64,000 bases of DNA from Hydractinia symbiolongicarpus (lineage: Eukaryota; Cnidaria; Hydrozoa; Anthoathecata; Hydractiniidae). The position numbers and the translations under genes are program-made. Shown in pieces: positions 13,371 through 30,745 of this stretch. The stretch lies in contig NC_079880.1 of the NCBI RefSeq assembly GCF_029227915.1, forward strand, positions 32,851,501 to 32,915,500. Reading direction: 5' to 3'. Numbering within the stretch: position 1 is the stretch's first letter; the number at the start of each line of letters is the position of its first letter. The notes beneath the pieces were generated by a model. The model ran no database searches, had not been told where the DNA came from, and saw only the letters and a list, made by a program, of their open reading frames with translations.

Positions 13371-14292
13371 TGCTAAATCGCCCTAATGTGGACAACTAAA
13401 GCAAAAAAAACTATCGTAAAGTGGACACGATCGTAATGTGGACATTTTTCGTGTCCACGTAACGTTTGCGCTAATTTCTAACCCTCTTTTGTTAACGCAG
13501 TCATAATGACATCTAATTGTCATTCTTAAGGGCCTAACAGAGTACTAATTAAGGTACTGTATGCATATTTTTACGCAGCGCAATTATTAAAAAATAGGCA
13601 TATTGGATTTGGGGTATATATCTCTCTTTTGTAATTTTCGTACATTAGGTGGACACGATATATATCTTGCAATTCTGAAGCAGCGGGAGGCTATATCTCG
13701 GTCGTTTTGATGACGTGGTCTGTAACACAAAGGAGGCTCCTAATTATATTGTTTTTATGCAAAATTATGTCGGTATAAAAGATATATTGCAATTTTATTG
13801 GTTTGGCCTGCAAAAATACCGCGAAAATTTTCAGCACATATTCTCACCAGCCGGCATGCCGTACATCCATAATGGCACCTTTGTTTATCATGTGGATTGT
13901 CCTGTGGGAACGATAAAGTGTTAATTATTTTGTTTTTATGGAATTTCTCTGCCTTGTTTATGTGAATAAAGTAGATGAGGTAAACCCTATGTTATATTTC
14001 ACCTCAATGTGCAGAAACAAGTAATATAATTTATCTGATTGCCAAGTTTCGCTCAGCTACTTTGCTAACTAGCCAGAAAAGAGTGGTTAGCTAGCTAATG
14101 TACGTTTCTATTTATGTAGTCAAACAAGTAGCCACCAATGTTAGTTATCGAAAAATCAAAAAAATATATAAGTGGCTAAGCTTTAGCTAAGTATCTGGCT
14201 ACCTTTAGATGGATATATATTGCTATATTTCCTATGTTTTAGGGTTGTGTGAGCACTGAGAGTGGATTTAAGCTATCCATTTTGTTAAAAAA

Positions 14293-17200
14293 ATGGCCAA
14301 GGTAGCTCAAGTTCAATACAATACTGTAAGTAGGAATTTAAATTTTGTTGTTGGACTATGTGTTCAGCATTTCTAATTCTTGCCACTTAGTGAAAGCTCT
14401 TTAGGAAACTGCTGTGTGTCACCTGAACATTTTAATTCTGTGATTTCATTTTTCTTGGTAACTTTCTCTTTCACCAGGCAACACAGAATAGCTATATATG
14501 ACATGATATCCGGAGCTTTACATCTAGGATACAAAACTTTTTGGTGGCCACTAATCAACAGGATTGAATTTTCAGTTTTGCATGACTTAATTGAAAACAT
14601 GTTAGTAGTGTTTTATTCTACGAGGGTGCCGATAAGCCGCATACGCCGTAAAAAGTGCGGGCGTTTTCCGGCTAGTTCGGCGTTTTGTAAGAAATTCGGT
14701 ATTCGCCCGAAAAAACCCGCATAGGCCCGAACAATGCCCGAAAAACAAAAGGAAACAGACACTGATATGATTCATAAAAACTATAAAAATTAAAATAAAC
14801 TTACTATGTGGTAGCGAAGTTCTTAAAAGAACTGTTTTTGATGGTTCTTATCGGCACCCTCTTTTTATTCTACAGACCAAGTAATTATATACCCTTCTTT
14901 GCCTCTGATTTTTTTAACATGAACTCAGGTATATATATATATATATATATACTTTAAATTTAATCAGAAATTAAATGCTTATATATTATTCATGCTTAGT
15001 AAGTGAGTGCGAGTGAGTGCAAACCATCCCGTAAGATTCACATTCAAATGAGGCTATTATATAGCTATTAGATTCAAATGTACGACTTTCTAATCTTGTG
15101 CAAAGTGATAAACATGTCACAACTATACATTCAAAACGAAAAGTAAATTTATTTTTTTCTTAATTGGGTGTAAAATTATTTCTGTTAAGTGAAATAAGTA
15201 CTTTTATATGCCAGTATATTTACAAATGTACATGCTTCGAATATGAAAACTTGCTACCCATGTTGTTGTTTTCCAATTATCTCATGCTTTATGTTGAGCA
15301 TTGACACCTTTGTGCTGTGGGGTGATGGTAGCAGTTTTAAAAATGGGTGGAATTTTGCTTGTTTCAAGGCACATTTTCCAGATTGTTGTGTGTGAAGTTG
15401 TAATTGTTGACTCGCATTTGGGATGAAAATTTCAACATATTAGTTTTAAGTATTTAAGGATATGTAAAGGAAATCTCTATATATGTGTCCACCTTGATTT
15501 TTAATATTTATATTTTTGATATGTCCACTTTAGGATGATATTTTCAATACATAAGTTTTAAGTATTCAAGAACATATAAACGAAATATTTATGCATATAT
15601 ATGTTCACTTTGAGTTTTACAATGATAATTTCGACATAACAGTTCTAAAATTTTTAGGGATATGTAAGAGAAATGTCTGCGTGTCCACTGACTCAACTTT
15701 TACAATGTGTGCACTTTATGATGTTTATCATTACTTATGTTACTTATGTTAACTTTTGAAGTTGTGGACGACGGACGTCAGTCACTTTTTTCTTTGTTGT
15801 TTTGTTTGCTCCATTCGTAGACTAAGTTTAGGTCTGCTTGCACATTTTCAATGTCACTTTCAGAGCTAACCTTCATTGTAAGTCTTGTATCATCTGCAAA
15901 GCTTGAGAGAGATGCGTCCTTTACAGAAAGATCAGGAAGATGAGCGGTCCAAGCGCACTTCCTTGTGGTACGCCAGAGATGACTTTTGTGGTGTGTGAGT
16001 GGTGACCGTTTACTGAGACGTACCCTTATTTTGACTTTCCCAAATTGAACTAGTTGAATGCTTTTATTTATGTATTTTATTGAAGACATTTTTAATAAAA
16101 AAAAGATTTATTTTGTTACTTTTAGGATAAAACTTTATTAGGATGTATATTTGACTAAAAGAAAGAAACTTGATTGTATTTTTTTGAAACTGTGGTGATT
16201 TGGTAACTGTAAGTGGTCTAAAAAATTGCATCTTGACACGTGGAGGACGGGGATTTTCTTAAAACTTTCCTAAGATTTTAAGGTTGTTGAGGCTCATTTT
16301 CTTATCAAAAAAGACATGTAATATCAAAAGAGATGCCTATGTATATGGTCATTTTAAGTTTTACGAGTTATGACTTTGACATATCTACTTTAATATATAG
16401 TTTTGGCATATAAATTTAACTTTCTTTAAGAATATCTAAAAAGAAATATGAATGTCCACTTTGAGTTTTAAAATTTATGTTTTTGATATGTCCATGTTAG
16501 GATGATAATTGGGACATATTAGTTCAAGAATATGTATAAAGGAAACGTTTATGTATATGTCCACTTTGAGTTTTAAAACTTATGTTTTTGATATGTCCAC
16601 TTTAGGATGAAAATGTCGACATATTAGTTTTAACTATTTCAAATATGTAAAAAGAAAATGTATATGTCCACCTTAAGTTTTAAAATTTATGTTTTTGATA
16701 TGTCCACTTTAGCATGATAATTTCGAGATAAAATTATTTTAAATATTCAAGAATATGTAAAGGAATTTCTATGTATGTGTCCACTTTAAGTTTAAAAATT
16801 TATGTATTTGGTATGTCCACTTTAGGATGATAATTTTGAGATAAAATTATTTTAAATATTCAAGAATATGTAAAGGAAATGTCTATGTATATGTCCACTT
16901 TAAGTTTTAAAATTTATTTTTTTGACATGTCCACTTTAGGATGATAATTTCGACATATTAGTTTCAACTATTCAAAAATATTTAAAAAGGAAATGTCTAT
17001 GTATATGTCCACTTTGAGTTTTAAAATTTATGTTTTTGATATGTCCACTTTGGATGATAATTTCGACATATTAGTTTTAACTATTCAAAAATATGTAAAA
17101 AGGAAATGTTTATGTATATGTCCACTTTGAGTTTTAAAATTTATTTTTTTGACATGTCCACTTTAGGATGATAATTTCGACTAGTTTTAACTATTCGAAA

Positions 17201-29291: not shown

Positions 29292-30480
29292 TGAAGGTAT
29301 CTTGTTTACACAGTTATTTCTCGTTTATTCGTGATATAGTTCGTACAAGGTGATACATTTAGGAAGGTTTAAGGCGTTAAACAGATTATCATTTAGCGTA
29401 CGTTTCTTGATTTCTCAGTCCTTCCTTACGCAGCCCCATTATATAACTAGTGTCAAATGAGAAAAAGGAAAAGGAAGTTAATTTCTGTGGAATTAGTAAG
29501 ATATAACTGCTTGGTTATCCAGGTTCGTTTATTTAAATTCGAAGAAGCAGCAAATGATTAATCGTTTTTTGTTTTTTTGTTTGCATATAAAAATGTATGA
29601 AAATACTGAATTTTATGTGTTTACCCTTTTTTTTCATTTTTACCCTTGTTCTGTTGTTTTTAATAACGCATATTATAGATTTAGGTGTTCTTCTTTCTTT
29701 TTTGATTTTTGTTATGTTCAAAGGAGTCTATTACTACGCATGTCATGTGTTTGGAAGTTTCAGGAATACACTTTTATTTTGACACTCTTAGTTTTGTATC
29801 TTTTTAAACAAACCCAGCAGCCTTAAAAACCTCAAAATCTTAAAAAAATTTAAGGAAAATTTATAACCCGTAGTTACTACATCATAGCAAAAACAGTATA
29901 AGTTGTGTTCGTTTGCAAACTACAAAATGTCTTGAAAGGGTTTTTTTTACTGATTGTATGCTGGGAAATCATGGCCTTTCCACTCAGTGACTCAGGGCAA
30001 AGAATATAGAATTCAATGAAAAGTCAGGGAAAAATTTGGTTTAAAAGCTGTATGTGAACCCTGTAAAAAACGTATCGGATCGAATACATGCAAAAGCAAC
30101 AGTTTTAATGCCCTTAATGTTGCTTAAGATCCTCTTTACAAAGCGCAATTGTTGCATTCGTTGTTTGTTGGTTTTGTACCCACATAAACCACTTCCACGC
30201 ATTTTGCTGCTTCATTAAGCTAGTTCTTAAATTGTAACCAAACTTTTGGTACAAATTCACATACTCTTAAATACATGTTAAGGATGCTATAATTTGTGTT
30301 TTTTCCTTTATATTTTTTCTCCGAACTGGACAGCTGCTAACGTGTGCTTCTTTTTTGTTTTCATACAGATTATAAAAAATATCACTTACAACAATGAGAC
30401 AAATGTCTTTAAAAAGACAATATTGCAGTTCAATATTAATAATTATCAGATGATCGGGTTTAACGCTCATGTATATAAAA
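29292..30480. other. right flank of the recombinase element, no gene seen
   Basis: AT-rich sequence with only short chance reading frames. The terminal motif zone (GTAGACAC at 30530-30560, GTCCAC at 30692 and 30722) follows it. Confidence 0.5.
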
Positions 30481-30745
30481 TATATATCTGTCTACATTTA
30501 GTCGATCTAATGTAAAAATTTTCTTAAAGTAGACACAAATCATATGGAATCGTTATGTAGACACAAAAATTTCAAATTTTTTTTAAGAGGCAAAAAGGCA
30601 TACAGGGCGCATACGCAGACAAAAAGAATACTCCTTATACAAAAATAAAGGTTATAGGGGGTAAGGGTTTGCGAAAAAACATGGTTTTTATATGTCCACT
30701 TTTAGTTCGAATTTTCAGAGTGTCCACCTAAGGTTGATATAGCGT

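Follow-up and report, generated by a model that had tools for sequence, protein, structure and literature searches.

The 64,000-nucleotide window analysed here (Hydractinia symbiolongicarpus, contig NC_079880.1) contains, between positions 13371 and 30745, a single long gene on the plus strand. Besides the exon that encodes a tyrosine recombinase (YR), the frame list gives this stretch only five further frames, of 103-141 residues. We read the stretch, with good confidence, as an autonomous hydrozoan DNA transposon moved by its own YR, with a KMT5A-like SET domain fused ahead of the YR in a single protein (Table 1). The predicted gene has 23 exons, from an ATG at 14293 to a stop at 28506, and a coding sequence of 3396 nt including the stop (1131 residues). 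All 22 introns are GT-AG and their phases are continuous, and the claim made in the first-pass annotation, of agreeing phases and a total length divisible by three, was borne out by the open 1131-residue protein that splicing of the predicted exons yields. That annotation had also proposed that a gene joining SET and YR forms the basis of a 17.4-kb mobile element, a proposal now upheld by eight places with both ends, by empty sites, and by SET exons lying upstream of YR.

The genome searched was the window's own assembly (480.9 Mb, 76 contigs), in which nine full-length YR frames are identical. The left 269 bp gave 10 matches, 9 of them full, and the right 296 bp gave 12 (11 full); both ends were present at eight places, window included, and seven of these keep an intact YR frame. 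The borders at 13371 and 30745 recur in other copies of the same genome. Ends-only copies were absent among the end matches, every one of which lay at a place with YR matches. Both ends were fetched for nine other copies: the exact right core was found in eight and the exact left core in six. The exceptions are the C6 copy at 13.09 Mb, for which the stretch fetched gave no left match, the C9 copy (L017, C9:15602958-15609958), and a diverged C11 copy with neither exact core. L017 is missing its first 134 bp; in place of this left end its own flank folds back at a long AT run, which looks like an assembly artefact at AT repeats. Divergence from the window copy was 0-2 bases over the left 2930 bp (six copies), and 0 mismatches with one gap over the right 1303 bp (eight copies). 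Because these copies are near-identical to that of the window, we conclude that there was a recent burst of movement. One copy, C15:7398692-7418895, is longer, at about 20.2 kb: the distance from its SET exon down to the YR is 7.5 kb rather than 4.0 kb, so about 3.5 kb has been added inside it.

The termini are imperfect inverted repeats with 18 of 23 positions matching, a level reached by none of 3000 shuffles and none of 2000 interior stretch pairs (maximum 17 in both). An AT run of 39-358 bp precedes all nine exact left ends (of 10 left loci, window included), and one of 28-404 bp follows all nine exact right ends examined, again with the window included; the C19 and C41 copies do not enter this right-end count. 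Simple repeats make up only 0.70% of H. symbiolongicarpus HSymV2.0, according to PMC10411563, and AT runs at every end are therefore not due to chance. The window copy sits between exact 2947-bp direct repeats. A 441-bp piece of this flank gave 27 genome matches, 10 of them full length at 96-100% identity, including two in the window. Five of the eight full-length relatives outside the window were fetched, and all five were empty: the left flank passes through a 30-36 bp AT-rich tract directly into the window's right flank from 34324 (97.1-98.7% identity over 761-779 bp), with no element between. Since these flank relatives are empty at that tract, the element must have entered the AT tract of a multicopy repeat.

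A host gene with borders arising by chance was considered and ruled out by the terminal repeats, which exceed the shuffles, by the recurrence of the ends in different flanks, and by the empty sites. Similarly, the element as an artefact of the 2947-bp direct repeat was rejected, as other copies show the same ends in other flanks. The second flank copy in the window may represent a tandem duplication or a haplotype join. The repeat itself carries a THAP/P-element-like transposase remnant (PF21788) and possibly marks an assembly or haplotype join.

Table 1 Features of the SET-YR element and its flanks (positions in the 64,000-nucleotide window)
Feature	Position	Strand	Evidence
Whole element, ~17.4 kb	13371..30745	+	ends recur in other copies; empty sites
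Left terminal repeat	13372..13394	+	18/23 positions equal to right end reversed
Right terminal repeat	30721..30743	-	right core exact in 8/9 other fetched copies
Tandem array in intron 1, unit ~114 bp, 51 exact GTCCAC boxes resembling the end boxes	16310..19762	+	
Exon 1 with start codon (predicted)	14293..14325	+	
Exons 2-5, SET domain region	19802..20929	+	gene model; PDB and Pfam matches
Exons 6-16, linker (predicted)	21056..24201	+	
Exon 17, two zinc knuckles and YR	24441..26073	+	alignment residues; Pfam in paralogues
Exons 18-23, C-terminal tail, no confirmed Myb	26148..28506	+	
(AT)20 target tract, left side	13331..13370		
(TA)197 target tract, right side	30746..31140		
Exact 2947-bp flanking direct repeat, first copy	10424..13370		
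Exact 2947-bp flanking direct repeat, second copy; then (AT)138 and right flank without element	31141..34087		

The SET domain occupies residues 51-157 of the 1131 (Pfam PF00856, 2.1e-11), and the best PDB match of the region is SETD8/KMT5A (7e-13). Both matches agree with the KMT5A-like SET with NHS and ELRYNYG motifs recognised in the first-pass annotation; these motifs and the Y-x-Y core residues are kept in the window copy. Its position is N-terminal in a long protein, which differs from canonical KMT5A, a short protein with a C-terminal SET (PMC10368294).

To characterise exon 17 we relied on a paralogue alignment of 10 out of 15 sequences (the window copy and L037-L050). Of the 15, L037 and L041 carry a stop, L046, L047 and L050 (frame-split or with stops) were left out, and L044 and L045 are represented by part of their length. 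The alignment shows invariant R488, H514 and Y523 and almost invariant R363 and K411 (exon-17 numbering), with the tyrosine nine residues after the histidine. PF00589 (Phage_integrase) matched three of the ten aligned members, at 8.8e-5, 0.002 and 0.0057, two of the three being close relatives. On the strength of these residues and of the Pfam matches in paralogues we assign exon 17 as a tyrosine recombinase, a classification made at sequence level from conserved residues and sub-threshold matches. The R-K-HxxR-H-Y signature proposed earlier stood as far as the conserved R, K, R, H and Y are concerned, and failed at HxxR, which reads TxxR. The earlier zinc motifs were confirmed as two zinc knuckles in exon 17, both conserved in the alignment. 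Searching PDB with the YR and with its profile returned weak unrelated matches only, and an AlphaFold single-sequence model of the YR was unusable (mean pLDDT 36.8). A Myb-like end had also been proposed: the last 78 residues gave no Myb or SANT match in Pfam, only two weak unrelated ones, and resemble solely the copies of this family and one diverged copy, and we therefore dropped the label. The suggested profile search of the spliced protein thus recovered SET; Phage_integrase was missed in the window copy and fell below threshold in the three paralogues, and Myb was not recovered.

Paired GTGGACA boxes lie in both element ends, and a double box similar to them recurs in the intron-1 array. 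Aligned to the array, the right end scores 57 (maximum 43 in 300 shuffles) and the left end 45 (maximum 40, likewise in 300). All 51 exact array sites are GTCCAC, with zero GTGGAC; the element as a whole holds 57 of the 62 GTCCAC sites and 5 of the 10 GTGGAC sites of the window. A frame at 15778-16107 on the minus strand, inside intron 1, resembles by eye a LINE reverse-transcriptase relic, and all six copies compared retain the stretch.

The element works like a YR DNA transposon. We propose that the SET-YR protein would bind the paired GTGGACA boxes inside both ends, and that the YR would exchange strands in a short TA core common to the element edge and to any (AT)n tract, movement probably proceeding via a circle with a TA junction. 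Exchange at a TA core would explain both the AT targets and the absence of a readable, distinct target duplication. The intron-1 array could bring the SET-YR protein to the 5' part of the element itself, and SET would there methylate nucleosomes, at H4K20 or another lysine, keeping the element expressible or tying its movement to the cell cycle. Donor or target sites had been suggested for SET in the first-pass annotation; as the array lies in the gene's own first intron, the element itself is the likelier place. Alternatively, a DDE transposase from elsewhere may move the element via its inverted repeats, in which case the SET-YR protein would serve some other purpose, for instance regulation or the resolution of circles. 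Section 8 of PMC3212892 reports no short inverted repeats for animal Cryptons, and sesarmid nimaviruses, with 46-bp inverted repeats, enter (AT/TA)n by a Ginger2-like DDE enzyme (PMC10871703). We nevertheless consider a foreign DDE enzyme unlikely, given that SET-YR is the sole long gene of the element and is present in a second family too.

Beyond the window's family, match rows were merged by hand into 64 YR places and 108 SET-search places. At 28 of the 64 YR places, and at 16 of the 51 outside the window's family, the 20 kb upstream contain SET exons on the same strand; such exons lie downstream on the same strand at none and upstream on the opposite strand at one. One intron position inside SET is common to other families: in five of these families it is at the same place, before V/IDAT, and the part of SET seen in a sixth, its second half, begins at that place. 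The second family, whose YR is 41% identical to that of the window, also carries SET exons, and its right-end matches stand before AT runs of 29-278 bp in nine of nine cases. Its C7 copy, the one copy in which a left end was identified, spans 31.9 kb between two AT runs and has a 5' tandem array as well; in its C3 copy unrelated sequence begins at the array. In the 24.6 kb seen of the C7 copy, the frames of at least 120 residues are the YR and a single antisense frame of 137 residues. Both second-family ends match the window's right end at 15 of 23 positions (5 and 9 of 300 shuffles as good), and its left end at 11 and 13 of 23 (265 and 57 of 300). A TTAGG..GGAC box near the AT tract appears by eye to be common to both families. 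SET upstream of YR is thus found in several families, which share the predicted fusion.

Several observations weigh against our reading of the element as a YR transposon with a fused SET. The gene model is predicted from sequence alone, and the exon-17 YR of the window copy had, by itself, no useful match in Pfam, PHROGs or PDB. All three PF00589 matches of the paralogues lie below the curated cut-off, and the threonine at the expected first histidine of HxxR is invariant. With the SET query used, no SET was found within 20 kb of 36 of the 64 YR places. NDS stands in place of NHS in all nine other SET stretches compared, which makes methylation outside the window's family doubtful. The second-family ends match each other at 12 of 23 positions, and 136 of 300 shuffles did as well. 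Finally, the C15 copy at 3.0 Mb has a broken YR frame.

SET-like stretches with no YR found nearby were also seen, at C7:18938521, C4:27109146 and others, and at C4:6127858 (L074, L075). Some are present in several near-identical copies, one stretch lies in a 1272-residue open frame, and the two compared both read NDS. Elements other than SET-YR ones may therefore carry SET.

The Starships of fungi are large elements with a YR gene, the DUF3435 captain, and HarbingerS and MuDR are DDE transposons. Our element differs from Starships in its animal host, in having no cargo genes seen and in lacking a DUF3435 match (spliced protein, Pfam to E 10). Among the closest parallels, animal Cryptons (CryptonA, CryptonI) likewise have a YR as sole recombinase and occur in animals including a cnidarian; the description in PMC3212892 gives them neither terminal repeats nor a C-terminal domain, whereas the present element has 23-bp inverted repeats. 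The SET fusion, internal array and AT-tract targets further set it apart, by comparison with Crypton descriptions rather than Crypton sequences. SET methyltransferase genes have been described in HarbingerS and MuDR transposons of Phytophthora (PMC12730594); these are oomycete transposons with a SET gene, whereas here a YR and SET form one fused gene in an animal, and the spliced protein has no DDE match in Pfam. SETMAR likewise joins SET to a transposon enzyme but is a host gene with an inactive DDE transposase (PMC8704517). No SET-YR transposon was among the matches listed in open PubMed Central (PMC) texts, in line with the earlier statement that no animal element with SET fused to the recombinase was known, which has to be qualified by the SET genes of the Phytophthora transposons. 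SET in transposons has a precedent in these oomycete elements.

Endogenous nimaviruses of crustaceans also enter simple repeats, by a YR (telomere repeat) or a DDE enzyme (AT/TA), as reported in PMC10871703. Their YR-bearing members lend some plausibility to a remnant of an endogenous DNA virus that integrated by its YR. Nimaviruses, however, have large viral gene sets and the element one gene, accompanied only by the five short frames noted above, and the 24.6 kb seen of the second-family C7 copy are comparably empty. Viral contigs held no relatives by YR protein, by two degenerate patterns or by YR alignment, which also counts against a viral origin, and we regard it as exceedingly unlikely. 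Prokaryote contigs were searched as well and held no relatives.

A possible link to development emerges from the KMT5A-like genes described in section 9 of PMC10368294. Hydractinia has up to 65 of them, Hydra 24, Nematostella one and sea urchin 61. An N-terminal SETD8-like SET is present in most of the Hydractinia genes, and 22 are activated early; the first 13 were called dispersed and highly divergent, and the longer Hydractinia and sea urchin genes have common C-terminal ends. There they are treated as methyltransferase genes, and the paper is not among the open PMC texts that name both a SET domain and a tyrosine recombinase. We infer here their identity with the SET-YR element, the published gene names being unmatched to places, and a large part of the published Hydractinia, Hydra and sea urchin set may consist of elements of this kind. 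The published reading, in which ordinary duplication multiplied H4K20 methyltransferase genes of the host that serve in development, accords with a multi-exon gene whose SET is intact and with the expression of 22 such genes in early embryos. It does not account for ends that stay fixed from flank to flank, AT targets, empty sites, near-identical dispersed copies and a YR in the same gene, and for the element at hand it is very improbable. A broader proposal, which we offer tentatively as somewhat less likely than not, is that an unrecognised superfamily of animal YR transposons, with SET self-marking via the array, lies behind most H4K20-methyltransferase expansions of hydrozoans and sea urchins, among them genes that come on when the embryonic genome is activated. 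A transposon whose recombinase is fused to a histone-modifying domain would show directly that a genome parasite can write chromatin. The SET-YR element offers a concrete alternative, testable by its ends, to the published reading of these developmental methyltransferase genes. Given how nearly identical the copies are, movement seems recent enough for it to be observed in a laboratory model animal.

The remainder of the window, from 34712 to 64000, contains many other transposons. These include a Harbinger-type DDE element (35610-36707), a Helitron (46842-50342) and, by eye, a LINE (37667-40272), a copia element (61561-63882) and a gypsy element with 164-bp ends, 98% identical, at 36649 and 44684. 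An exact 826-bp tandem duplication (51095-51920 and 51919-52744) possibly has the same origin as the 2947-bp repeat.

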